From Acidovorax sp. 1608163 (GTDB lineage: Bacteria > Pseudomonadota > Gammaproteobacteria > Burkholderiales > Burkholderiaceae_C), in contig NZ_CP033069.1 in assembly GCF_003669015.1 (NCBI RefSeq), positions 3,916,501 to 3,980,500 on the forward strand: a DNA stretch of 64,000 nt, read 5' to 3'. The number at the start of each line of letters is the position of its first letter. Position 1 is the first letter of the stretch. The notes beneath the pieces are model-generated. The model was not told the origin of the DNA and made no database searches. It was given only the letters and a program-made list of their open reading frames with translations. The position numbers and the translations under genes were made by a program. This document shows, one piece after another, positions 1,277-15,707 of the stretch.

Positions 1277-1723
1277 CAGCCCAAAGAAGCATCCGCGTCT
1301 AGTCCCGGTTCAGCAAATCTCGCTATCGCACGCGCACTTCATTCGCCTGGGCGAGTGAAGGTGAAGCAAGAACCGAAAGCCCCTTGCACCGGTGTGTGGC
1401 TGTACACCCACACCGGTCATGCACGGATTGCGAACAATGGTCAACACCTCAAGAACAAAGGCCGCGCTGACCGGGTAACTTTCCCAAAGCTCCAACGCGT
1501 CTCCACAACGATCTCGGGTGCACCGAGATAGCCACATTAGTGCGTACACACATCCACCATGCCCCTTTATTTATTGAGGATTTTCTTGATACGCATCTAG
1601 CGTCCTAAAATCAAAACCTTTTGTTACACCCATTGAGCAGCATGGGCATGCGAATGCTGTCGGGCATTGCCAAGTGATGGTCGGTCCTGCACCATGTACA
1701 GCACTCCGCTACCACCACACACC
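1277..1723 (+). promoter_or_regulatory. Gene-free interval upstream of pelA, probable pel promoter region
   Basis: About 450 bases without a credible reading frame. The last 170 bases are clearly more AT-rich than the surroundings (for example TTTATTTATTGAGG near 1565). This fits a promoter and regulatory region for the long pel operon. I could not pick a -35/-10 pair with proper spacing or a recognisable FleQ site by eye. Confidence 0.4.
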
Positions 1724-4568
1724 ATGATCTGGTCACTGCGCGGCTTCCTTCTATTGACGCTGAGTCTGGCCTCCCTGTGGGTGGCTGACGAGGCTTCGGC
1801 CAAGACCCGGCCCGCCATTGCACTGCACTATGGCCACAATGCGCCCCTGGAAGACTTGAAGGTGTTTGACATCGTCGTGGTGGAGCCAGACCACGGCTAT
1901 GACCCCATCGCACAGCGCGCCAAGGGAAGCGAGCTTTACGCCTACACCTCGGTGGCCGAGGTTCAACCCAGCCGCAGTTATTTCAAAGACATCCCGGCCG
2001 TTTGGCAACTGGCACGCAATGGCCATTGGAACTCTGTCGTCCTGGACCAGACGCCCGCGCCATGGCCCTCCTTCTTTGCGGACCGCGTGATTGCGCCGCT
2101 GTGGCAGCGCGGATACCGCGGCTTCTTTCTGGACACGATGGACTCTTACCGTCTTGCCAGCCATTTTGATGAAGCCGCACAGCAAGCGGGCCTGGTCCGC
2201 GTCATCCAGACGCTGCACGAGCGCTTTCCTGGCATCCGACTCATCATGAACCGGGGCTTTGACATCGTGCCCCGGGTCAAAGACAAGATCGAAATGGTGG
2301 CCGCAGAGTCCCTCTACCGCAGCTGGAATGCAGGAGCCAACCGATATGAAGAGGTGCCTGACGCCGACAGGCAGTGGCTGCTGACGCAACTGCGCACGAT
2401 CCAGACCCGTGACGGCATTCCCGTGCTGGCGATCGATTACGTTCCACCAAACGATAGAGCGTTGGCACGCGAAACCGCCAAGCGCATTCAGGCGGATGGG
2501 TTCACACCGTGGGTCAGCGACAGTCGCTTGGACACAGTGGGTATCGGCGCCGTCGAGCTGGTACCTCGGCGCATCCTGATCCTCTACAACGGAGCCGAAG
2601 CCCCTGCCGTCAACTACACCAGCGCCCATCGGTTCCTGCAGATGCCACTGAACCATATGGGGTATGTGGTGGACTATGCGGATGTGCGACAGCCACTTCC
2701 GAAAGACATTTACCGAGACCGCTACGTGGGTGTCGTCACCGCATTCAACGGATACATGCCCAGCGCACTGCGGCGCGAATTCAGCACATGGCTTCAAACG
2801 CTCAAAAACCAGGGTATGCCATTGGCCATCGTCGGTGACTTTGGTCTCGCCCCTGACAAGTCTTGGGCAGACATGTTTGGCATACAGGGCACCAGCCTCA
2901 GCATCTATCCTCCTTTGCAATCACAAAAGCAGCACCCCATGATGGGGCTAGAGGCGGCATCCCCCCTGTGGAAAAGGACTCCGCTCCAGCCCGCCTGGTA
3001 GGACCCCAAGCCGCCCAGGCCATCCCACTGGTTGAAATGAAAGATCAAAAGGGCCAGCGTTTCGTCGCCGCCGCGCTCATGCCTTGGGGTGGTTTTGTGC
3101 TGGACCCTTACGTGTACAACGAACTGCCTGGCACCGAGCAAACCCGCTGGGTCGTGGACCCTTTTGAATTTCTGCAAAAAGCACTGAGGCTGCCCTTTAT
3201 GCCTGTGCCCGACATCACCACCGAAAGCGGACGCAGGCTGCTCTTGGCCCATATTGACGGCGATGGATTTCCTTCACGCGCAGAGATGCCCGGAGCGCCA
3301 GTGGCAGCGCTAGTGCTGCTGAAGGAAATACTGGAGAAATACCGCATTCCGCAAACCGTGTCTGTGATCGAAGGCGAGATCGCACCTCATGGATTGCACC
3401 CTGAGCTAAGCGGGCAACTAGAGGACATTGCTCGCAAGATGTTCAAGCTGCCGCATGTGGAGATTGCCAGCCACAGTTTTTCGCACCCATACCTTTGGGA
3501 CACCGATGTCAAGCACGGCATTTTTTCCGACAGCAACGAAGTCGAGTACCACCTGAACATCCCCAACTACCAAGTGGACATGCTCAGGGAAACCCAAGGC
3601 TCGACCGACTACATCCGCAAAAACCTCGCGCCCGCAGGCAAGCCCGTGCGCGTTTTTCAATGGACGGGAGATACCGCCCCTAACGAAGCCGCATTGAAAG
3701 CCACCTACGACGCAGGGCTGCTCAACATCAACGGGGGAGACACCTTCATCTCTCGCAGCAACCCCTCGCTGACCGCTGTGCGGCCCCACGGAATCACCAA
3801 GGGCAACTACCTTCAGGTGTATGCCCCATCGCCAACGAGAACATCTTCACCAATCTGTGGAGAGGGCCCTTTTATGGATATGAACGGGTTTTGGAGACGT
3901 TTGAACTGACGGACACCCCCAGGCGTATCAAGCCCGTGGGCATTTACTACCACACGTATTCAGCCTCGAAAGTGGCAGGACTGCAGGCCTTGCGCAAGGT
4001 CTACAACTGGGCCCTGAACCAGCCTCTGCACCCGGTATTCACATCCGAGTTCATCCGCAAGGTTCAAGACTTTCACACCTACGCCATTGCAATAGAGGGC
4101 GAAGGCTGGCGCGTGCGCGGTGCAGGCCATCTGCGCACCTTGCGGTTCCCCATCGCAGCGGCAGCCATGGTGGCGCACCTGTCAGCCAGCGAAGGCGTTG
4201 CTGGCGTGAGTGAAGGCGTGGAAGGCAGCTACGTGCATTTGACCGGAGCACAGGCATGGGTCGCCAACCCCGCCTCAGCCTTGGGGCCAAGCGGATCCAC
4301 CTCAGAAACCCGCATCTGGCTGCACGATGCCAACGCACGCGTGACCCAATGGGAACGCAAACAGCAGGGCCTGCGCACCGACTTCAGCCTGCAAGGCTAC
4401 ATGCCGCTTCAATTCACACTTTCGGGCATGGTGCCCACTTGCAAGGTGAGTGCCAACGGCCAAACCTTGGCTGCGACCAAATCCTCTGAAAAAGAGCGCC
4501 CCGACCTGCGCACCTACCGCCTTCCTGATGCTGCCGCGCAAATCCAAATACTCTGCGCCGGTCGCTGA
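1724..4568 (+). pseudogene. pelA: PelA, periplasmic Pel deacetylase/hydrolase (two frameshifts as read)
   Basis: Periplasmic modification enzyme of Pel, the partly deacetylated GalNAc polymer. I prefer ATG 1724 because it gives a compact signal peptide ending near ASA; an earlier in-frame ATG is at 1667. The N-terminal glycosidase domain carries FFLDTMDSY at about residues 133-141. The deacetylase domain has DGDGF near residue 510 and the SHSFSHPY metal motif near 583. The reading frame breaks twice. One C is missing from the C6 run at 2961-2966 and one from the C4 run at 3824-3827. Restoring both gives one uninterrupted protein of about 949 residues, close to the Pseudomonas PelA length. Both breaks look like sequence errors rather than decay, because every motif is intact. 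It is the first gene of pelABCDEFG and overlaps pelB by 41 bases. Confidence 0.85.
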
Positions 4569-7500
4569 GCGCCCCGTCCTGGCCAGCTACTGGATCACCG
4601 CCTTGCTGGCGGTGTTGGTCAGTGGCGCACTGTGGCTGATGTACCCCCGCCAAGACCTGGAAAGGCGCTTGGTATCGTCCAGCCGCGACTCCAGCCTGTC
4701 TCTGGCGTACCTGAAGAACCTGCTGCGCAGCGACCCCACCAACGTGCAGTTGCAGCAACTGATGGCCCAGCGCGTTGCGGTGGAAGAAGAGCGCAAGAAA
4801 CGAGAAGAAGCTCTCGCCAATCGCAAGCCCACCGCCTGGACCCGCTGGAGCGATGCCATGGACGGCTTCCACGCTCTACCCCAGGCAGACGCCGAGGCAC
4901 GCAACGAACGGCGCACCGAACTGATAGCGCAATTGCACGAGCTGACGGCCGATGAGGTCCCTGCAGATGTACTTCCAGCGCTGGCGGAAAACGCCTTCCA
5001 ACTGGGCGACCGGCTGCTGGGCATTCAGCTCTATCGCAGGCTGGGAGACGCAGCAGACTCTGCAGAAAAAGCCGTGCCACTTTACGTGCGAGCAGCCCGT
5101 GAAGCCCTGGCGGTATCCGCACACCCACAGGCCGCCAGCCTTTACATGAAGGCCAGGCATGCAACGACCAGCCCAGAACAGGCCAAGGCGCTGTACCTGA
5201 GTGCGGTGGCGGCCATGCAGGCCTCTGGCAAGCCTGCGGAGGCTCTGGCCTTGGCACAGCAAGAAGTGGCAGGTCTGGACTCCGATCCTGTGGTCCTGCG
5301 GACCTTGGTCGAATTGGCACGCGCGGCAGGCAAACCCGCTGTGGCAGAGCAATACGTCAAGCGACTGCTCCACCTGGCTTTGCTGTTGCAGTGGCAAGCA
5401 GGTAACACGGTGCTGGCCGATGCCCCCTCGACGACGCATCCCGCGAGCCCAGCGCTTGTGCCCGCGTCCCATGCCGAGGGCTTCCCCATGGACCGACAAA
5501 GCGACCTGCAGCCCCGCTACGAAGATCGTGCCTATTTGCTGGACACTCGCCTGCTCAACCGCCCCACCCACATGGGCATGCAACGATGGACCACTGCCCA
5601 AGGCCAAGGACAGACAGCAGCCAAGGCAGGACCTGGCCTGCCCTTTGACAACCAGATCTACAGCCTGGGCTACCAGGTGTTTCTGGAAAACCGCAACCTC
5701 GAAGACGCTTGGTTGGTCGCCCGGTCTGCCGTGCAGCAGTCGCCTTCAGATTTACAGTGGCGTGAAAGGCTTGCGCAGGTAGCAGAGTGGACACAGCGCA
5801 GTGACGTAGCACTGGAGAACTGGCTGGTCATTGCCCGAACAACGCAAAAAGATGCCGCGTGGCAAGCCGTCTTGCGGCTCGCACCGGGCCTGTTTGACGA
5901 CACCGCTTTGATCGAGGGGCTGCGCTATGAATTACGCCGTGCGCCACACAACACCAAACTGACGCAGGAACTGGTCATGGCCTATGAGCGGGTGGGCACT
6001 CCCCAGCCAGCCATTGACTTTTTGACACACCAACCGCCCACGCCTGCCAACCTGGAATTGCTGGCAGACCTCGCCACGCGATCGGGGCAAATGGATTTGG
6101 CGCTGAACACCTGGGCGCAGCTGCTGCGCGACCCCGCCCAACTGACCCCTGAGCGCGCCTTGCGCGCCGCAACCCTGGCTGTGGTGCGCGGAAAGCCCAG
6201 CCTCGCCATGGAGTGGCTGGAAAACGCGCGCGCCACCCTGAAGCCAGACACCCCTGAAGCCACAGACTTTTGGCGCATGACAGGGCTGCTTGCAGAACGG
6301 CAACAGCGCGACGCCGTGGCCTTGGATGCCTACCGCCAACTGCTGGCCAGGCCAGATGCGGCCATTGCGGACTACGACGCAGCCATCCGGCTGCTGCAAA
6401 CCGACCACCCACTGCAAGCCGCCGAAGTGGCCGTACAAGCCTGGGACCGCTTCGACAAAGCACGCCACCTGATCCTGGCCATGACCACTTATGTGGGGCG
6501 CAGCCAGTGGAGCGATGTGAAACGCCTTCTGGACAAACTGGACCCCGCCAAAGAGGCCAGCCACCACGCCAGCGCCCCCCTGTGGCGCGAACCCCAATTC
6601 CTTCGCCTGGCGGGGACGTACTACCAAAATACGGGCAACATTCCTCGCGCGGGACAGATGCTGGAGGCTGGTTTGCGACTCGCCCCAGATTCAGCCGAAA
6701 TGCGCCAAGCCATCGTGTGGCTGCTCATCGACAGCAACGACAACGTGTCCTTGCGCAAGCTGCTGGCCACCCATGAACCCGATTGGAGCCAGGACAAGGA
6801 GATGCACGATGCCCTGGGTTCGGCCTACCAAGCACTGTCATTGCCTGCCGTGGCCCTGGCACGCTATTTCAAGCCACAGCTAGCAGAGCGCCAAGGCGAC
6901 TTCCTGTGGCTGATGAATTACGCCGATGCGCTGGACCAGAACCAGGAGACAGACAAGTCATGGCGCATGCGCAAGCACTTGCTGTCTGCCGAGTGGGCGC
7001 AGGCCCACCAAGGCCAGGCCATGACCCGGGCGCAAGCGCGTGAGCGCTGGCTGACCGAAGAGGGGTTGGAGGCCACTCGCCGCCTCGCCCGTGCACGGCT
7101 GCTGCTACAGCAAAAGCCCGGCGACCCGGCATTCGATACGCTGCGCGAATTGCTGCGGCTGGACCGCGATGCCCAGGGCAACCTGTCCAACGCGGCGGCA
7201 GAGACTGCCATAGGCTGGCTGCAAGATGCAGGCCAGTACGCGGCAGAGCGCGGACTTTTGTGGCAGCAGTACGCACGCAGCCAGAGCCTGCGCGCCAACC
7301 GGCCGCTGTGGGCCGACATCACGGTCGCCCTGGCAGAACAAGACAAGGCCACGACAGGGGCTTTGCTGGAGACCTTTGGCGAACGGCTGCCTCGCTACGA
7401 CCGCATCAACGCAGCAGTGGCCATCCAGGACTTGCGCCAAGCCCAAACCGTGGCCTTTGAAACACAGCAAGACCAGCCCGACGACAACCCCCTGCACCTG

Positions 7501-8463
7501 CAGCTGACAGAGAACCTGCTGGCTTTCAGCGACCATGCAGGGCCACAGTTGGAGTTGCGGAAGTTGGGTGATCTGGACGAAACAGAAGCCACCGCGCAGT
7601 GGCACATGGCCCTGAGCCCCCGCCTGTCCATGGACCTGAGCCTCACCCGCATCGAGCGCACCGTGGGGCTTTCAAGCCAGCTCAGCCATCCCTCGCAAGA
7701 ACGCGGAGTGAAGGTGGACCTGCGCTGGCAGGACCACGACTCCACCACCACCTTGCACCTGGCACGGCGCGAAAGCCTGGCCAGCTACACGCCCGTGCAA
7801 ATTGAGCAGGAATGGCGCATAGACAACCGACTGACACTGCGCATGGACCTGGGCTTGCAATTGCCCACGCAAGAAAGCACCGTCATGCGCATGGCCGGGA
7901 TGAAGGACCGTGCAGGCATCAGCCTGCGCTACCAAGCATCGCGCATCGACCAGTTCACCATGGAGCACTGGCGCGAGCGCTACAAGCTACAGACCGGGGG
8001 AGCGCTGGGCTCCGGCAGCCACTCGGCCCTAACGTACATGCACTCATACCGGGTCGAGGCCCCTAGCCTGGAGATGGGCGCGTTCTGGTCCCAGCATTCG
8101 TATGACCGGCGTGACCCCGGAGAGCTGGCTGGCCAGGACCTGGCCTTTTTGCAGTACCTTCCGCCCGAAGTGCGCCGCGTGAGCGACACCTACTTCCTGC
8201 CGGAGAACTTCAGCTACTACGGCCTGCAGATCTCGACCAACACGCGCTTTGAGCGCGACTACACCCGCGCACTGCAGCCCTATGGCAGCGTGGCCAGGAC
8301 TTGGCACAGCCGCCAAGGCCCCGGCTACAACCTGCGCCTGGGGCTGTCTGGCAGTGTCTGGGGGGCCGATCACCTCAACCTGGGCTGGAGCCTGGGCAAA
8401 GGGGGCACCCTCACCCAAGGCCTGACCCGAGAGATCCAGCTGCGCTACCGCAAACATTTCTGA
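4528..8463 (+). CDS. pelB: PelB, TPR scaffold and outer-membrane Pel export porin
   Basis: About 1311 residues. An N-terminal membrane anchor (YWITALLAVLVSGALWLMY, about residues 21-39) is followed by a very long helical repeat region rich in A, L and R (TPR type, roughly residues 100-1000). A C-terminal part of about 300 residues has alternating aromatic and polar residues and ends in a final strand with KHF, as expected for a beta-barrel. This is the PelB layout, and it is slightly longer than the Pseudomonas protein. ATG 4528 is chosen because it leaves a short basic N-terminus before the membrane segment; ATG 4450 is also in frame. It overlaps the end of pelA. In the family it guides Pel through the periplasm and out of the cell, working with PelA and PelC. 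Confidence 0.88.
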   Translation: MLPRKSKYSAPVAERPVLASYWITALLAVLVSGALWLMYPRQDLERRLVSSSRDSSLSLAYLKNLLRSDPTNVQLQQLMAQRVAVEEERKKREEALANRKPTAWTRWSDAMDGFHALPQADAEARNERRTELIAQLHELTADEVPADVLPALAENAFQLGDRLLGIQLYRRLGDAADSAEKAVPLYVRAAREALAVSAHPQAASLYMKARHATTSPEQAKALYLSAVAAMQASGKPAEALALAQQEVAGLDSDPVVLRTLVELARAAGKPAVAEQYVKRLLHLALLLQWQAGNTVLADAPSTTHPASPALVPASHAEGFPMDRQSDLQPRYEDRAYLLDTRLLNRPTHMGMQRWTTAQGQGQTAAKAGPGLPFDNQIYSLGYQVFLENRNLEDAWLVARSAVQQSPSDLQWRERLAQVAEWTQRSDVALENWLVIARTTQKDAAWQAVLRLAPGLFDDTALIEGLRYELRRAPHNTKLTQELVMAYERVGTPQPAIDFLTHQPPTPANLELLADLATRSGQMDLALNTWAQLLRDPAQLTPERALRAATLAVVRGKPSLAMEWLENARATLKPDTPEATDFWRMTGLLAERQQRDAVALDAYRQLLARPDAAIADYDAAIRLLQTDHPLQAAEVAVQAWDRFDKARHLILAMTTYVGRSQWSDVKRLLDKLDPAKEASHHASAPLWREPQFLRLAGTYYQNTGNIPRAGQMLEAGLRLAPDSAEMRQAIVWLLIDSNDNVSLRKLLATHEPDWSQDKEMHDALGSAYQALSLPAVALARYFKPQLAERQGDFLWLMNYADALDQNQETDKSWRMRKHLLSAEWAQAHQGQAMTRAQARERWLTEEGLEATRRLARARLLLQQKPGDPAFDTLRELLRLDRDAQGNLSNAAAETAIGWLQDAGQYAAERGLLWQQYARSQSLRANRPLWADITVALAEQDKATTGALLETFGERLPRYDRINAAVAIQDLRQAQTVAFETQQDQPDDNPLHLQLTENLLAFSDHAGPQLELRKLGDLDETEATAQWHMALSPRLSMDLSLTRIERTVGLSSQLSHPSQERGVKVDLRWQDHDSTTTLHLARRESLASYTPVQIEQEWRIDNRLTLRMDLGLQLPTQESTVMRMAGMKDRAGISLRYQASRIDQFTMEHWRERYKLQTGGALGSGSHSALTYMHSYRVEAPSLEMGAFWSQHSYDRRDPGELAGQDLAFLQYLPPEVRRVSDTYFLPENFSYYGLQISTNTRFERDYTRALQPYGSVARTWHSRQGPGYNLRLGLSGSVWGADHLNLGWSLGKGGTLTQGLTREIQLRYRKHF

Positions 8464-8494: not shown

Positions 8495-9055
8495 ATGACA
8501 CGCCCATCCCGCCCTCGCCACGTTCTTCGCCCACTGAAAGTCATGGCCGTTGCGCTGCTGTTGACCGCCCTGGTCGCCTGCTCCACGGTAGACCGCGGCA
8601 AGGCACCTGCCCTGCAGGCCAATGCCGACTGGACCGTGCTGCCTTTTGCCAACCACACTGAAACCCCCATGGCCGGCAGCCGCGCTGAAAGCGTTGCCGA
8701 AGCCTTGCTGCACGCCCGTGGCGTGGGACGCATCAAGCGCTACACCAGCAGCGCCCAGGCCGAGGCATTGTTTGACGCAGCGGACACCAAGCGCCAGGAA
8801 CAAGCGCTGGCCTGGGCCAAAGAGCAAGGGGTGCGCTACGCCTTGGGCGGCGCGGTGGACGAGTGGCGCTACAAGGTGGGCGTAGACGGTGAGCCTGCGG
8901 CAGGCCTCACCTTGCACATCATCGATGTGCAAAGCGGAGAGATCCTGTGGAGTGGTGCAGGCGGCAAGTCGGGCTGGAGCCGAGAAGCGCTGTCGGCCGT
9001 CGCCCAAAAACTGATCCGTGAACTATTGAATGCCGGTTTGTCCGGCACACGTTAA
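8495..9055 (+). CDS. pelC: PelC, outer-membrane-associated lipoprotein
   Basis: 186 residues. It has a basic N-terminus, a hydrophobic run and a lipobox LVAC with the acylated cysteine at residue 29. The remainder matches the PelC pattern of a small alpha/beta domain with repeated A-E-A-L helices and LGGAVDEWRYK near the middle. PelC forms a ring under the PelB barrel in the periplasm and helps funnel the polymer. It lies 31 bases after pelB and 28 bases before pelD in the same operon. Confidence 0.85.
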   Translation: MTRPSRPRHVLRPLKVMAVALLLTALVACSTVDRGKAPALQANADWTVLPFANHTETPMAGSRAESVAEALLHARGVGRIKRYTSSAQAEALFDAADTKRQEQALAWAKEQGVRYALGGAVDEWRYKVGVDGEPAAGLTLHIIDVQSGEILWSGAGGKSGWSREALSAVAQKLIRELLNAGLSGTR

Positions 9056-9083: not shown

Positions 9084-10460
9084 ATGCCACCCAACGCCCG
9101 CGCCCCCGAAGCGCCCGCCACCGAAGACACCGCACCATCGCCCGCGCGCAAGCCCGGCTTTGCAGGCGCCCCCTTGGGCAAATTGACGGCCGTGGGAGAC
9201 CGCCCGCTGCTGGTGGCGCTGGAGTCCCTGGCCGTGCCCTGCATTGCCGTGGCACTGGGCTGGGTGGTGAGCCCACAAGACCCCTTGGGGGTGCAAGCCG
9301 ACTTCCACTGGTCGTGGCTGGCACCGATCATTGTGGCGTTGCGCTACGGGCCGCTGGCGGGCCTGGGGGCGGCAGCCGTGTTGCTGTTGGCCTGGATGGC
9401 TCTCAACCTGGGGCAGATGGAGCAGTTTCCCCAAATCTTTTTCCTGGGTGGGCTCATCACCGTGATGCTGGTGGGCGAGTTCTCCAGCCTGTGGAGGGCC
9501 CGCACCCGCCGTGCGGAGGTCGTTCAGCACTACCTGGACCAGCGACTGGAGCATTTGATTCGCCAGTACTACCTTCTGCGCCTGTCACACGACCGGCTGG
9601 AGCAGGAGCTGATTGGCCGCCCCATGTCCATGCGCGATGCCCTCAAGACGCTGCGCGGGCTGGGCGACGCCCACGAGGACGCGCAGGCGCTGTTGCGCCT
9701 GCTGGCACAGTACTGCCAGATCAGCTCTGCCGCGCTGCACCAAGTGCGCGCCGATACGCTGGAGACCACCGCCGTTGCCAGCATCGGTTCGCCCGTCGCG
9801 CTGGATGCCAAAGACCCACTCTTGCTCCAAGCACTGGAAACCCGAACCCTGTGCCATGTGGTGCAAGCCACCGTTCGCCAAGAGTCCACACGCTATCTGG
9901 TGGCAGCCCCCCTGCTGGACATTGGTGGCGATGTGCACGCCATACTGCTGATTGATGACTTGCCCTTTTTCTCGTTGCAAGACGAAAGCCTGCAAACCAT
10001 CAACCTCCTGCTGGGTTACTACACCGATGGCCTTTCCACCCAGGCCCTGGCAGCCCCGCTGATCCAGGAAGTGCCCCAGTGCCCGCCAGAGTTTGCGTTT
10101 GAGCTGCAACGCCTTTGGCGCATGCACCAAAGCACGCAAGTCCCCAGCATGGTCGTCGCCCTGGAGTTCAACCAGGCGGCCATGGCAAAAGACTTACCCC
10201 AGCAGTTCTCGCGCCTCAAGCGCCTCATGGACGAAAGCTGGGCGATTGCCGGGGAGACGCGGCACATCCTCGCAGTTCTGATGCCGCTGGGCGAGGCATC
10301 CACCGCCGAAGGGTTCATTGCACGGCTGGAGGAGTGGATCGACCGCAAGGACGGCACCACACTGGCACAAGCGGGCATCTACCCCCACCAATTGCCTCTG
10401 GCCGACTCCGGCGGGCCCTCAGCCTTGCTGAACAAACTCCAGCAGTTGGCCCATGCTTAA
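9084..10460 (+). CDS. pelD: PelD, inner-membrane cyclic di-GMP receptor of Pel synthesis
   Basis: 458 residues. An N-terminal stretch with several membrane segments (about residues 45-135) precedes a GAF-like domain (VARHL-type core around 230-330) and a degenerate GGDEF domain. No GG(D/E)EF active site is visible, but an RxxD inhibitory-site motif (KRLMDES, R380 and D383) is kept. That is where PelD binds cyclic di-GMP to switch on Pel polymerisation. Retention of RxxD suggests the locus is still controlled by cyclic di-GMP. It overlaps pelE by eight bases. Confidence 0.87.
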   Translation: MPPNARAPEAPATEDTAPSPARKPGFAGAPLGKLTAVGDRPLLVALESLAVPCIAVALGWVVSPQDPLGVQADFHWSWLAPIIVALRYGPLAGLGAAAVLLLAWMALNLGQMEQFPQIFFLGGLITVMLVGEFSSLWRARTRRAEVVQHYLDQRLEHLIRQYYLLRLSHDRLEQELIGRPMSMRDALKTLRGLGDAHEDAQALLRLLAQYCQISSAALHQVRADTLETTAVASIGSPVALDAKDPLLLQALETRTLCHVVQATVRQESTRYLVAAPLLDIGGDVHAILLIDDLPFFSLQDESLQTINLLLGYYTDGLSTQALAAPLIQEVPQCPPEFAFELQRLWRMHQSTQVPSMVVALEFNQAAMAKDLPQQFSRLKRLMDESWAIAGETRHILAVLMPLGEASTAEGFIARLEEWIDRKDGTTLAQAGIYPHQLPLADSGGPSALLNKLQQLAHA

Positions 10461-11469
10461 TACCAAATGGGGGCTGTGGGCCGTCTTGATGGAGCTGACC
10501 GCCTGGGCAGGCCCCACGCTGCTCGACGGCCACTCCAACGCGGCGTTGCTCAGCTACCTGCTGGCCCATGCAGGGGCCTGTGTGCTGCTGGCGCTGTTCA
10601 CCCTGCCACTGCTGACGGCCGAGCAGTCACGCCCCCGATTGCCCATGCTGGCGCTGATGGCCGTGTGCAGCTACGCCGTACCCATTGCAGGCTTTGTGGG
10701 TGTTTTGATTGGCACGCTGGTCTTGCGGTTTTACCGGGCCGCCCGCCCGCAGGAGGATTTTGAATCCATCCATCTACCAGAGTTTGACCTGCACCAGCGT
10801 ATGAAGAGCGGGTTTCGCCAAACAGGTCTGCGGGCCGTTCTGGGCAACAGCGAGGTGCCTGTGCGCTCGCGCATGCGCGCCATGGTCGCGCTGCAGCACA
10901 TGTCCGGACGCATTTCATCGCCGCTGCTGCGCAATGTGCTCAACGACTCCAGCGAAGACCTGCGACTGCTGGCCTACGGCATGCTCGACGCGCTGGAGCG
11001 CAACATCAGCCGCTCCATTGACCAGGAACTGAGTACCTTGCGCACAGCCCAAGCCGAAGAAGGCGCCAACCCGCTGGGGCCTACAGGGTTGCAAGCGGCG
11101 GAAAAGCTCTCTGCGCTGTACTGGGAGCTGGTCTACCAAAACCTGGCGCAAGGCGACATGCGCGAATACGCAATCCGCGAATCATTGCGCTATGGCGAAC
11201 AGGTGCTGGCGCAGCAACCCCACCAGGCACAACACCACTTGCGGCGCGGATTGCTGCTGCATGCGCTGGGCCAATTGGAGGATGCCGAAGAGGCCTATGT
11301 CCAAGCCCAGCAATTGGGCCTGCCTGCCACCCGTGTGCTGCCGTACCTGGCAGAGCTGAGCTTTGCGCAGCGCGATTTTGAAAAGACACGGCAACTGATG
11401 CAGCAACTGGACGAATGGAGCGCCCTGCCCCGCCTGCGCCCGGTCATCGACTACTGGAGTGCGCGATGA
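10453..11469 (+). CDS. pelE: PelE, inner-membrane TPR-containing Pel synthase subunit
   Basis: 338 residues. Two or three N-terminal membrane segments (roughly residues 10-95) are followed by a cytoplasmic helical domain with TPR-like pairs (HQAQHHLRRGLLLHALGQLEDAEEAY). Its length and position between pelD and pelF match PelE, which holds PelD, PelF and PelG together at the inner membrane. Its end overlaps the pelF start in an ATGA. Confidence 0.83.
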   Translation: MLNTKWGLWAVLMELTAWAGPTLLDGHSNAALLSYLLAHAGACVLLALFTLPLLTAEQSRPRLPMLALMAVCSYAVPIAGFVGVLIGTLVLRFYRAARPQEDFESIHLPEFDLHQRMKSGFRQTGLRAVLGNSEVPVRSRMRAMVALQHMSGRISSPLLRNVLNDSSEDLRLLAYGMLDALERNISRSIDQELSTLRTAQAEEGANPLGPTGLQAAEKLSALYWELVYQNLAQGDMREYAIRESLRYGEQVLAQQPHQAQHHLRRGLLLHALGQLEDAEEAYVQAQQLGLPATRVLPYLAELSFAQRDFEKTRQLMQQLDEWSALPRLRPVIDYWSAR

Positions 11470-13022
11470 CCCACCCCAAGGCCACGGAAGCGGACATTGC
11501 ACTGCTGCTGGAGGGCACCTTTCCCTATGTGAGCGGAGGCGTCTCCAGCTGGATCAACCAGATCATCCGAGCGTTTCCGGAGTACCGGTTTGCCATCGTG
11601 TTTTTAGGTAGCCAGCGCTCGGACTACAGCAAGTTCAAGTACGAGCTTCCGGCCAACGTTGTGCACTTTGAAGAGCACTTTCTGTATGACAACCTCTCGG
11701 CCCAGCACCTGCCGCGCGCGCGCGAGGGAGACCCCGCCACCTTTGACGTGCTGCGGGGCATTGTGACCACCCTGCGCGAGGGCCAGGCAGGCACCGAGCA
11801 GACGCTGCACATGCTGCGTGCCGTGACCCGCGAGATGGCGCCAGGGGGCAAATTTCCACTGGACGATTTTCTGTACAGCGAACGCTCTTGGGAGTTGATC
11901 CGGGACACCTACCGCGAGTACTGCACCGACCCCTCATTCGTGGACTACTTCTGGACCGTTCGCATCATGTTCCAGCCGCTGTGGACGTTGGCACGCGTGG
12001 CAGAGCAACTCATCCCCGTACGGATGCTGCACAGCGCATCCACCGGCTACGCAGGCTTTTTGGGCGCACTGCTGCACGACTCCCGCAGCATTCCGCTGGC
12101 ACTGTCCGAGCACGGCATCTACACCAAAGAGCGGCAGATTGACTTGCTCAAGAGCGAGTGGATTCGCGACAACCGCAACGTCTTTCAGCGCGATCCCACC
12201 GAACTCTCGTACTTTCGCCAGATGTGGATCCGGCTGTTTGAGTGGATGGGCCGCTATTGCTACGCTGCGGCCGACCCCATCATCGCCCTGTACGAAACCA
12301 ACCGACTGCGCCAAGTGCAAGACGGGGCCGATGCTGCACGCACCTTCAACATCCCCAATGGCATCCAACTTGCGCGCTTTGCCCCCATGCGCGACAAGCG
12401 CCCGGCAGACGTGCCACCTGTGCTGTGCCTCATTGGCCGGGTGGTGCCCATCAAGGACGTCAAAACCTTCATCCGTGCCATGCGCCGTGTAGTGAACCAG
12501 CTCCCCAACGCCGAGGGTTGGATTGCAGGACCCACCGACGAAGACCAAACCTATGCCCAGGAATGCCAAAACCTGGTGCGCAGTCTGGGACTGGAAGAGC
12601 ACGTGAAGTTTCTGGGCTTTCAAAAGGTCGAAGACCTCATGCCCAAAATCGGGCTGGTGGTGCTCTCCTCCATCAGCGAAGCGCTTCCATTGGTCATTCT
12701 GGAAGGCTATGCCGCCGGCGTGCCTACCGTGTCCACCGATGTGGGATCGTGCCGCCAACTCATCGAGGGCCTGGACGAACCCGATCGCGCCTTGGGCGCC
12801 AGCGGCAGCGTTGTCGGCATTGCCGACCCCCAAGCTTTGGCAGACGCCGCTATCGCGCTGTTGCGGGACCCGGCGGAATGGAACAGAGCCAGCCAAGCCG
12901 CCATTGCCCGCGTAGAGCGCTATTACACCGACAGCATGATGTTTGGCAGCTACCGCAACGTCTACCAGAAGGCACTGGGCGAGACCGCACTGAACGCGCC
13001 CCACAACGAGGAGGCCTGCTGA
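11466..13022 (+). CDS. pelF: PelF, cytoplasmic GT4 glycosyltransferase (Pel polymerase)
   Basis: 518 residues from ATG 11466; a longer in-frame start at 11415 would overlap pelE. The N-terminal Rossmann domain opens with LLLEGTFPYVSGGVSSW, typical of PelF. The C-terminal domain has the GT4 EX7E motif EALPLVILE and a GRVVPIKDVKTF donor-site strand. It polymerises the Pel chain from a UDP-sugar in the cytoplasm and delivers it to PelG. It is translationally coupled to pelE by a 4-base overlap, and pelG starts two bases after its stop. Confidence 0.9.
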   Translation: MTHPKATEADIALLLEGTFPYVSGGVSSWINQIIRAFPEYRFAIVFLGSQRSDYSKFKYELPANVVHFEEHFLYDNLSAQHLPRAREGDPATFDVLRGIVTTLREGQAGTEQTLHMLRAVTREMAPGGKFPLDDFLYSERSWELIRDTYREYCTDPSFVDYFWTVRIMFQPLWTLARVAEQLIPVRMLHSASTGYAGFLGALLHDSRSIPLALSEHGIYTKERQIDLLKSEWIRDNRNVFQRDPTELSYFRQMWIRLFEWMGRYCYAAADPIIALYETNRLRQVQDGADAARTFNIPNGIQLARFAPMRDKRPADVPPVLCLIGRVVPIKDVKTFIRAMRRVVNQLPNAEGWIAGPTDEDQTYAQECQNLVRSLGLEEHVKFLGFQKVEDLMPKIGLVVLSSISEALPLVILEGYAAGVPTVSTDVGSCRQLIEGLDEPDRALGASGSVVGIADPQALADAAIALLRDPAEWNRASQAAIARVERYYTDSMMFGSYRNVYQKALGETALNAPHNEEAC

Positions 13023-13023
13023 C

Positions 13024-14397
13024 ATGGCTGGCATTGGATTTGAACTGCGCCGCATGCTGCGCAAAAACACCCTGACGGGGCTGCTGCAAGCCTATGCCTA
13101 TGCTGGGGTGATTGGCTCCGGGCCTTGGGTGTTTTCCATCATTGGCATCTTGCTGGTGGGTATCTTCAGCGCCAGCGTGGTGGTGCCCAACTACCTGGTG
13201 ACCCAATTCCAGACCTCAGTCACCTACCTGGTGGCCTGCAGTTTGATTTTGACGGGCTTCGTGCAATTGGCCTTCACCCGCTTTGTGTCAGACCGGCTCT
13301 TTGAAAAACACCGCGAGTCGATCCTGCCCAACCTGCACGGGTTGCTGCTGGGGGTGATAGGGGTGGCCGCCGTGCTGGGCAGCCTGTCTTTGTTTGTCGT
13401 GTTTCCGGGCGAGCGGCTGCTGTACCGCATGCTCATGCTGGCGGGCTTTTGCATCATGTGCGGCGTGTGGGTGCTGGCGATTTTGCTGTCTGGCATGAAG
13501 CGCTACCGGGCTATCACCATCTTGTTTGGCGGGGCCTATGCCCTCATCGTCATCTCGGCGCTGTTGATGCGCCCCTGGGGACTGGAGGGCTTACTCGGCG
13601 GCTTCGTGCTGGGCAACTTTGTGCTGCTGGCAGGCATGTGGGTGCTGGTGGTGCGCGAGTTCAGTCCCAAAGGTCGGCTCATTGCGTTTGACTTTGCCGA
13701 ACGCAAACTGCTGTACCCGTCCCTGGTGCTGGTGGGCTTGCTCTACAACGTGGCGATCTGGGCGGACAAGTTCATGTTCTGGTACTTCACGCCCACATCG
13801 GAGCCCATCATCGGCGGGCTGCGCGCCTCGCTCATCTATGACCTGCCGGTGTTCCTGTCGTACCTCTCCATCATCCCTGGCATGGCGGTGTTCTTGGTGC
13901 GCATCGAGACCGACTTCGTCGAGTTCTACGACAAGTTCTATGACGCGGTGCGCAGCGGCGGCTCGCTGGAATACATCGAGTCCATGCGCGATGAAATGGT
14001 CTACGCCATACAGCAGGGGCTGGGCGAGATTGCCAAAATCCAGACCCTGGCCGTGCTGGTGACCTTTGTGGCCGGCCCCGCCGTGCTGGATGCCCTGGGC
14101 ATTTCCAGTCTGTACTTGCCACTGCTGCACGTGCAGGTCATCGGCGCAGGGCTGCAGGTGGGCTTGATGGCGATTTTGAATGTCTTCTTCTACCTGGACC
14201 AGCGCCGCATTGTGCTGCTGCTGTGTGCCGAGATGGTGGTGCTGAACATCGGTCTCACCGCCGTCACGCTGAACCTGGGCGCCGCGTTCTATGGCTATGG
14301 GTTTGCGGGGTCCATGCTCATCACGCTGTGCACGGGCATTGTGCTGCTCACGCGCCAACTCAACCGCCTGGAATACGAGACCTTCATGCTGCAGTGA
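13024..14397 (+). CDS. pelG: PelG, inner-membrane Pel exporter
   Basis: 457 residues with about twelve hydrophobic membrane segments throughout. The opening MAGIGFELRRMLRKNTLTG is the usual PelG start. It is a MOP/MATE-like permease that moves the growing chain across the inner membrane with PelD, PelE and PelF. It is the last canonical pel gene and ends 128 bases before the GH135-like lipoprotein gene. Confidence 0.9.
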   Translation: MAGIGFELRRMLRKNTLTGLLQAYAYAGVIGSGPWVFSIIGILLVGIFSASVVVPNYLVTQFQTSVTYLVACSLILTGFVQLAFTRFVSDRLFEKHRESILPNLHGLLLGVIGVAAVLGSLSLFVVFPGERLLYRMLMLAGFCIMCGVWVLAILLSGMKRYRAITILFGGAYALIVISALLMRPWGLEGLLGGFVLGNFVLLAGMWVLVVREFSPKGRLIAFDFAERKLLYPSLVLVGLLYNVAIWADKFMFWYFTPTSEPIIGGLRASLIYDLPVFLSYLSIIPGMAVFLVRIETDFVEFYDKFYDAVRSGGSLEYIESMRDEMVYAIQQGLGEIAKIQTLAVLVTFVAGPAVLDALGISSLYLPLLHVQVIGAGLQVGLMAILNVFFYLDQRRIVLLLCAEMVVLNIGLTAVTLNLGAAFYGYGFAGSMLITLCTGIVLLTRQLNRLEYETFMLQ

Positions 14398-14525
14398 CAG
14401 CCCGCGCAGAAGCTGCGCAACTCCCGGCCCAGCATCTCGCCCACAAGTGCTTTACAAAAATACGCGCGGCGATGCGACCCGATTGCAGTACCATTTTTTC
14501 ACGTTCCACACCGTCTACAGCCGCC

Positions 14526-15707
14526 ATGCACACCCCACTGAACGCACTCTTTCGCACTGCATCCCTGATGTCTGCGGCAGCCCTGGCCACCGCCTGCGGC
14601 GGTGGAGGCGGTGGCAGTGACACCCCGGTGGCCAGCAATGTGCAGGTCACTGTGTCCACCCCCACCACCAGCGGTGGCGTGTTTTCGGTACAGGCGCCCA
14701 TCGCGGTGCAGGCACAGGTCACGGTCAACGGTACAGCGGCCAGCGATGGCACGGCGGTTGCCTTGTCCCTGCCGGGTGGCAGCTTTGCACCAGTAGCACC
14801 ACAAACGCGCGCCGGCACGGCGTCCAGCACCCTGACAGGCACCACACCAGGGCCCCAGGCCCTGACAGCCAGCACCACAGTGAACGGCACCACCGGCTCA
14901 GGCACCCAGACGATTTACCTGCGGCCCGTACCTGCCGCGCTGGAGCTGCTGGTGCCCGCCTACTTCCACCCCTCCACCAACACCGGCTGGTCGCAACTGG
15001 CGACCTCGGCCAGCGCGGCGCCATCGGTGTCCATCACCGCCATCCTGAACCCATCCAACGGCGTGTTCACTGCGGCAGACAGCCAAACCCTGCAAGCCGC
15101 CCGCAACCTGGTCAACGCCGGGGGCAAGGTGGTGGGCTACGTGTACACCCGCTATGGCACGGGCACACGCAGCCTGGCCGACATCAAGACCAACATCGAC
15201 CGGTACTTTGACCTGTACGGCAGCAGTGTGGTCAGTGGCATTTTTCTGGATGAAATGGCCTCGGCGGCAGGCCAGGTTGAGTTCTACCGCGAGATCTACC
15301 AGTACATCAAAGCCCGCAACGCCAACCTGCGTGTGATTGGCAACCCCGGTGCCATTCCGGCTGCCTCTGCCTACACCGGGGTGGCCGATGCGCTGGTGAG
15401 CTTTGAGGGCACGGCCACCACCTTCCAGGGCTTTGACCCGCGCACCAGCGCACCGTGGATGTACACCTTGGCCAACACGCGCAACGCAGCGCTGGTGCAC
15501 AACGCCGACACCTGCGCTGCCATGCAGACCGCCGTGCAAACCGCAGCCACGGCCCGCTACAACCATGGTCTGGTGTATGCCACCGACCTGCAGTACAACC
15601 CCACCACCCAGGTAGGCAACCCCTGGGCCAGCCTGCCCAGTTATTGGGGGGCGCTGGTGGGCACCGTGCAAGCGGTCAATGCCGGGACGGCACTGCCCAG
15701 CTGCTGA
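14526..15707 (+). CDS. Secreted Spherulin-4/GH135-like lipoprotein beside the pel genes
   Basis: 393 residues from ATG 14526. The signal peptide ends in a lipobox (LATAC, Cys24), followed by a glycine-rich linker. An Ig-like beta domain rich in T, S and V covers about residues 35-135, with an A-S-D-G-T core. The rest is a TIM-barrel-like domain beginning LLVPAYFHP. It contains the conserved GIFLDEM strand (D242, E243), the expected acidic site of the spherulation-specific family 4 fold. The characterised fungal member Sph3 (GH135) cuts the GalNAc-containing galactosaminogalactan. Pel is a GalNAc-based polymer, so a Pel-cleaving or Pel-trimming outer-membrane enzyme is a reasonable inference. 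The family call is good; the substrate is not shown by the sequence. Confidence 0.75.
   Translation: MHTPLNALFRTASLMSAAALATACGGGGGGSDTPVASNVQVTVSTPTTSGGVFSVQAPIAVQAQVTVNGTAASDGTAVALSLPGGSFAPVAPQTRAGTASSTLTGTTPGPQALTASTTVNGTTGSGTQTIYLRPVPAALELLVPAYFHPSTNTGWSQLATSASAAPSVSITAILNPSNGVFTAADSQTLQAARNLVNAGGKVVGYVYTRYGTGTRSLADIKTNIDRYFDLYGSSVVSGIFLDEMASAAGQVEFYREIYQYIKARNANLRVIGNPGAIPAASAYTGVADALVSFEGTATTFQGFDPRTSAPWMYTLANTRNAALVHNADTCAAMQTAVQTAATARYNHGLVYATDLQYNPTTQVGNPWASLPSYWGALVGTVQAVNAGTALPSC

Follow-up and report, generated by a model that had tools for sequence, protein, structure and literature searches.

Why should a pel operon, whose PelA already has a glycosidase domain of its own, be followed directly by a gene for what looks like a second glycoside hydrolase (GH)? 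The question is raised by Acidovorax sp. 1608163 in a stretch of 64,000 nucleotides (contig NZ_CP033069.1, positions 3,916,501 to 3,980,500; hereafter the window, meaning the whole stretch analyzed), where a gene for a 393-amino-acid protein starts 128 bp beyond the end of pelG, reads in the same orientation, and is the last of the genes running in the pel direction. A sequence-only reading had already placed it there and proposed a cell-surface lipoprotein that would trim or disperse Pel. From sequence comparison, the product is a GH135/Spherulin-4/Sph3-type protein with conserved catalytic acids, from a family whose characterized members have so far been fungal. That it is catalytically active as a GH135 enzyme and acts on Pel seems likely, and with slightly better than even confidence we regard it as a clade-specific Pel accessory of Acidovorax and related Comamonadaceae, namely an outer-membrane lipoprotein with an Ig-like spacer that would act on acetylated Pel in the periplasm.

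The assignment of the barrel, proposed earlier from its GIFLDEM motif (residues 238-244), was confirmed by independent searches. Residues 141-381 matched Pfam Spherulin4 (PF12138) with an E value of 7.4e-44 and 150.5 bits against a cut-off of 30.2, and the sole PDB sequences found at E<=1 were those of Aspergillus clavatus Sph3 (5c5g and 5d6t, E of ~3e-12). The predicted barrel fold is Sph3-like, with 26% identity to Sph3 over the aligned barrel, and the Foldseek matches ranking below Sph3 were generic barrels. Three acids (D242, E243 and E294) align with those of Sph3, whose D166 variant is inactive (PMC8546845); we number this Asp after the aligned Sph3 position, while PMC12054363 prints Asp196/Glu222. 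All three were retained in every pel-linked copy of three overlapping sets, 42/42 in the named genomes (the window's own row included), 10/10 in the genus and 20/20. We infer a retaining endo-alpha-1,4-N-acetylgalactosaminidase activity.

The gene was the only Spherulin4 match in the 5.05-Mb genome at E<=0.001, and the E values, the single copy and the conservation rule out a chance match or a stray annotation. Membership in GH166 was rejected on sequence, as the PDB matches at E<=1 were to Sph3 alone and none to PelA. The same applies to GH114 and GH191, since PF03537 did not match and no GH114 or GH191 chain (Ega3 and TM1410, respectively) did so at E<=1, and the relation is by fold only.

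The lipobox and Ig-like linker of the earlier reading fared differently. The N terminus, MHTPLNALFRTASLMSAAALATAC-GGGGGG, is lipobox-like around Cys24, with R10 as the first positive charge, but it is weak, with Ala at -3. A simple lipobox pattern was present 5' of the barrel in 41/42 other pel-adjacent copies of the named-genome survey, and the protein is probably lipid anchored. As for the linker, AlphaFold2 predicts a beta-sandwich at residues ~39-133 (predicted local distance difference test [pLDDT] blocks of 89-98 over residues 41-140). Pfam Big_1 (Ig-like) matched 9 of the 21 members of alignment A1 at E<=1, although not the window protein itself at this threshold.

To evaluate the linkage to pel, we used samples of 399 genomes from the order, 299 from the family and 229 from the class, each including the window's own genome, and 47 from the genus. 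Spherulin4 was found in 12 and PelG in 43 genomes of the order sample, with both in 11 against 1.3 expected, and in 36 and 41 genomes of the family sample, with both in 26 against 4.9 expected (Fisher values of 7e-11 and 5e-19, respectively, which ignore kinship; two further family genomes with PelG below the cut-off were left uncounted). Of the family genomes with PelG (41), 15 have the gene immediately behind pelG in the same orientation, 2 have it on the opposite strand at a distance of 16.5 kb, 9 have it elsewhere and 15 lack it. Comparison of 56 pelG loci, the best scoring of the 77 PelG genomes in the order and family samples, showed a split by PelG identity. Where PelG shared 68% identity or more with the window's, the gene was present in 19/19 (15 adjacent, 2 at 16.5 kb and 2 elsewhere), whereas below 64% it was adjacent in 0/37, elsewhere in 5 and absent from 32. 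The remaining 21 PelG genomes had no adjacent gene, and 7 had one elsewhere. All 10 PelG genomes of the genus sample carried it directly after pelG, with 449-604 bases between the PelG and Spherulin4 domain matches, and none of the 37 PelG-free genomes of the genus had an acid-keeping copy. The gene therefore goes with pel in one pel clade and not with pel generally, and both adjacency and co-inheritance hold in that clade only. The idea that every pel operon has it was discarded on the 37 loci below 64% identity. The sequence-only reading had looked to relatives for conservation beside pelG; it is seen in the close clade, while at distant pel loci the gene is absent or unlinked.

Among named genomes, 32/77 loci were pel-adjacent (best 80 of 134 matches), a fraction that favors linkage given that 15/21 members of the query alignment were themselves pel-adjacent, a bias that the genome samples do not have; two loci had too little upstream sequence and several others had little. 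The genera include Acidovorax, Paracidovorax, Giesbergeria, Simplicispira, Xylophilus and Paenacidovorax. Ten of these loci (L102, L103, L105, L106, L111, L115, L121-L123 and L126) have two acid-keeping GH135 lipoproteins in tandem after pelG. Such pairs occur in Paracidovorax, Xylophilus and others, and the first and second copies of Paracidovorax fall on separate branches. A different situation was observed in four genomes of the order sample (G121, G196, G226 and G315; f35/g44), all with PelG, whose distant Spherulin4 proteins have no lipobox pattern and are encoded on another contig or 845 kb from pelG; four further PelG genomes of genus g44 have no Spherulin4.

Does the new gene stand in for a PelA that has lost its hydrolase? 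The comparison did not bear this out, as the GH166 Asp and Glu motifs were present in the PelA of 20/20 relatives (16 from genomes with Spherulin4 and 4 from genomes without). With PelA bearing its own GH166 motifs, in line with the glycosidase domain that the sequence-only reading had given it, the GH135 protein would be a second hydrolase. Gram-positive pel loci are arranged otherwise: their PelA homologue has no hydrolase domain, and a separate hydrolase gene is often close (PMC7112168, PMC12345266). Bacillus cereus BCE_5582 and Streptococcus intermedius SIR_1591 are such separate genes beside the pel operon, the former described as PelA-hydrolase-like and the latter as a TIM barrel with DUF4832, and neither is termed GH135 in the passages concerned. 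The GH166 domain of PelA (PDB 5tcb and 9cgy) shares with the window protein the polymer and the proposed chemistry, but it has no sequence match to it at E<=1, and PelA is present additionally. Aspergillus Sph3 shares the Pfam family, the barrel fold and the acids, and likewise belongs to an N-acetylgalactosamine (GalNAc) polymer cluster with a deacetylase and is membrane bound. However, the window protein is bacterial, has a lipobox-like motif and a predicted Ig-like spacer where Sph3 has a transmembrane segment, and unlike Sph3 adjoins a PelA already bearing a GH166 domain. Other exopolysaccharide operons encode the hydrolase BcsZ and the lyase AlgL on the periplasmic side. These operon-encoded polymer cutters belong to other families and are likened here by description, their periplasmic mode being the one proposed for the window protein; BcsZ is indeed termed a periplasmic hydrolase (PMC7112194).

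Our proposal builds on what the sequences show, namely the family, the predicted fold, the conserved acids, purifying selection, and a gene linked to one pel clade and inherited with it. The GH135 lipoprotein would sit in the outer membrane by its lipid anchor, with the Ig-like spacer holding the barrel off the membrane, so that the barrel faces the periplasm near PelB/PelC and cuts stretches of Pel that are still acetylated. It might trim chain length while the polymer moves from PelG to PelA/PelB, or clear polymer left undeacetylated by PelA. By default, a lipoprotein of the outer membrane points into the periplasm, and a Gly after the Cys fits outer-membrane sorting. The PelC ring likewise faces the periplasm (PMC12141448). 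In Pseudomonas aeruginosa, PelA partly deacetylates and cuts the GalNAc polymer, and PelB and PelC export it (PMC12022489, PMC12141448). Fungal Sph3, which is thought to be located at the synthase, is specific for the fully acetylated polymer (PMC12054363); it left native Pel intact and degraded it only in re-N-acetylated form, while PelAH tolerates galactosamine, and Ega3 cuts native but not re-acetylated Pel (PMC9135694). If the window protein shared the preference of Sph3, its natural substrate would precede deacetylation and hence be periplasmic, and the cutting of mature Pel would become doubtful.

That earlier version, which would have the lipoprotein cross to the cell surface and there trim matrix Pel or set it free for dispersal, we consider rather less probable. 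Surface display would be compatible with the Gly-rich stretch and the predicted Ig spacer that follow the Cys. A hydrolase encoded near pel can also restrain biofilm, as B. cereus without PelAH makes more biofilm and added enzyme disperses it (PMC7112168), and Sph3 broke up the GalNAc-rich Pel aggregates of S. intermedius, although P. aeruginosa Pel biofilms are said to withstand it (PMC12345266). The resistance of native Pel to Sph3 and the default orientation of lipoproteins speak against it, as does P. aeruginosa PelA, which itself already generates secreted Pel (PMC9894940). Provided that the enzyme is active and cuts Pel, the Sph3 preference together with the default orientation would moderately favor periplasmic trimming or clearing over surface dispersal.

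Within the genus sample we also found 15 copies unlinked to pel, 12 of them in genomes without PelG and 3 in genomes with it. Each of the 15 (L220-L234) has the lipobox pattern and keeps D242, while position 243 is Gly and position 294 Ala, whereas the pel-linked copies retain D, E and E in 10/10. Within the genus, the acids track pel linkage, which supports Pel as the substrate of the linked enzyme. The named genomes gave 17 acid-less unlinked copies (L140-L143, L145-L152, L154-L156, L158 and L159), with Gly at 243, D242 kept and Ala, Thr or Asn at 294. They form one clade (support 99/89) nested among pel-type proteins, and its nearest sister, L144, retains the acids; the truncated L153 and L160 were left out of the tree and the residue table. 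The model of L148 has Ig-like strands and the barrel pattern (pLDDT of 85; 14-sequence alignment including active relatives). The ratio of nonsynonymous to synonymous substitution rates in the barrel was 0.03-0.27 (median 0.15) for the eight closest of 78 pairs, calculated for 13 of the 15 genus copies after dropping the near-copies L224 and L226. This acid-less paralogue is under purifying selection; it is probably a pseudoenzyme, and its conservation gives a hint of a binding role. A narrow literature search for hydrolase pseudoenzymes yielded nothing. The conservation of so close a clade despite the loss of E243 and E294 could also mean that the pel-linked protein itself mainly binds Pel at the outer membrane, with catalysis secondary or absent, but with D242, E243 and E294 intact in the pel-linked copies examined this appears very unlikely.

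A further and rather doubtful extension of the periplasmic enzyme is a dedicated extra Pel step, in which chain length or quality would be set by a race between the GH135 lipoprotein and the PelA deacetylase, and the acid-less descendant, having lost the acid/base Glu and the Glu next to the nucleophile, would bind a Pel-like polymer instead of cutting it, also in PelG-free Acidovorax, for example to hold the matrix of other species. The ten proteins scanned next to unlinked copies (six loci, one or two per locus) included no polysaccharide genes. They were AI-2E-type transporters (L148 and L193), FlgO and PEP carboxylase (L138), RadC and Smr (L136), GntR/FCD and sulfate permease (L161), and two proteins without a match (L148 and L191). 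In L193, the unlinked second copy of G612, a Gly stands where the catalytic Asp would be (GEE), a separate loss.

Beyond the genus, the pattern of acids with linkage is less clean. Unlinked copies of the family sample had D, E and E in 11/13 cases in PelG genomes and in 7/11 in PelG-free ones, where one more had D, Q and E. Eight of these 11 PelG-free copies (in G570, G586, G585, G441, G427, G683 and G532) thus keep D, E or Q, and E, so the Spherulin4 domain has other uses. They are what could be expected if the window protein degraded another alpha-1,4-GalNAc polymer, such as fungal galactosaminogalactan or the matrix of another bacterium, and were adjacent to pel for co-regulation only. We regard this as improbable, as a free-standing forager would be expected to give the opposite of the 0/37 found in the PelG-free genomes of the genus, and 6 of the 8 acid-keeping copies have no lipobox pattern and look like a different, secreted type. 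Anchoring, at least on the lipobox pattern, seems to go with pel.

Several observations weigh against a periplasmic Pel enzyme. One is the weak lipobox of the window protein. Since native P. aeruginosa Pel was left uncut by Sph3 (PMC9135694), Pel may be a poor substrate, and Neurospora crassa hyphae stayed adherent after deletion of a fungal GH135 gene (PMC11356417), meaning that GH135 enzymes can be dispensable. The gene is absent from 15/41 PelG genomes of the family and from the genomes of 32/56 compared pelG loci, which places it outside the core Pel machine, and it is unlinked in 2 of the 19 closest loci. The class sample (Spherulin4 in 3, PelG in 15 and both in 2, counting the window's own genome) is uninformative, with too few Spherulin4 genomes. 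Finally, the window's pelA lies in three open frames, and the strain may not make Pel.

The other features of the locus are collected in Table 1. The three pelA pieces were searched separately and not joined; two of them matched PDB PelA (9cgy), positions 1667-3001 with an E value of 1.6e-59, and a Pfam search with the third gave no match. In relatives pelA is in one frame, in 19/19 of those having all three parts and in 5/5 genus members with pelA inside the fetched stretch (a sixth stretch stops earlier); one of these five is G713, which has a PelG 99.3% identical to the window's. The split may be either a real break or an assembly error. In the gap between pelG and the GH135 gene, a scan found neither terminator-like nor promoter-like sites. 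The block CTTTACAAAA..GTACCATTTTTT, which lies before the start codon, was similar in 4/6 aligned genomes and is possibly a regulatory site. Downstream, the neighbor of the GH135 gene is a His_biosynth gene on the opposite strand.

Table 1. Features of the pel locus and of the GH135 gene, in window coordinates.
Feature	Position	Strand	Evidence or remark
pelA	1637..4568	+	three open frames (1637-3001, 2857-3909, 3684-4568); PDB PelA 9cgy
pelB	4450..8463	+	PF24604, E 3e-93
pelC	8495..9055	+	between pelB and pelD as in relatives; weak LpoB match (Pfam)
pelD	9084..10460	+	PF16963, E 1.4e-31
pelE	10453..11469	+	position as in relatives; weak TPR matches
pelF	11415..13022	+	NF038011, E 1e-241
pelG	13024..14397	+	PF16933, E 2.7e-155
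Gap between pelG and GH135 gene, 128 bp	14398..14525	+	contains the block similar in 4/6 aligned genomes (14458-14525)
GH135/Spherulin4 gene	14526..15707	+	ATG to TGA; Pfam match, PDB match, AlphaFold2 model
Putative signal peptide and lipobox-like ALATAC, Cys24, Gly-rich stretch	14526..14597	+	read from translation
Ig-like domain, residues ~39-133	14640..14924	+	AlphaFold2 model
Spherulin4/GH135 barrel, residues 141-381	14946..15668	+	Pfam PF12138
Asp242 (Sph3 D166) and Glu243 (Sph3 E167)	15249..15254	+	Sph3 alignment
Glu294 (Sph3 Glu222, acid/base)	15405..15407	+	Sph3 alignment; role from PMC12054363

Both kinds of protein, GH135 enzymes and the accessory hydrolases of pel loci, are already known. 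Among the matches listed from the open-licence literature, in the parts available, we found no account of a pel locus with a GH135 gene, in agreement with the sequence-only reading, which knew of none. The pel survey of PMC7112194 does not mention Acidovorax in its main text, nor such a gene in the passages available, and in the 120 relatives listed the protein, where named, is called "spherulation-specific family 4" or hypothetical protein. So far, understanding of how Pel is hydrolyzed has come mainly from PelA. A pel clade with two hydrolase families, one of them of a type restricted in fungi to acetylated polymer, makes it testable what purpose cutting enzymes have in a polymer-making machine, and it brings bacterial GH135 enzymes to the attention of those seeking biofilm-dispersal enzymes. 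The linked, acid-keeping and unlinked, acid-lacking copies of a single genus are a natural experiment on the purpose of the enzyme.
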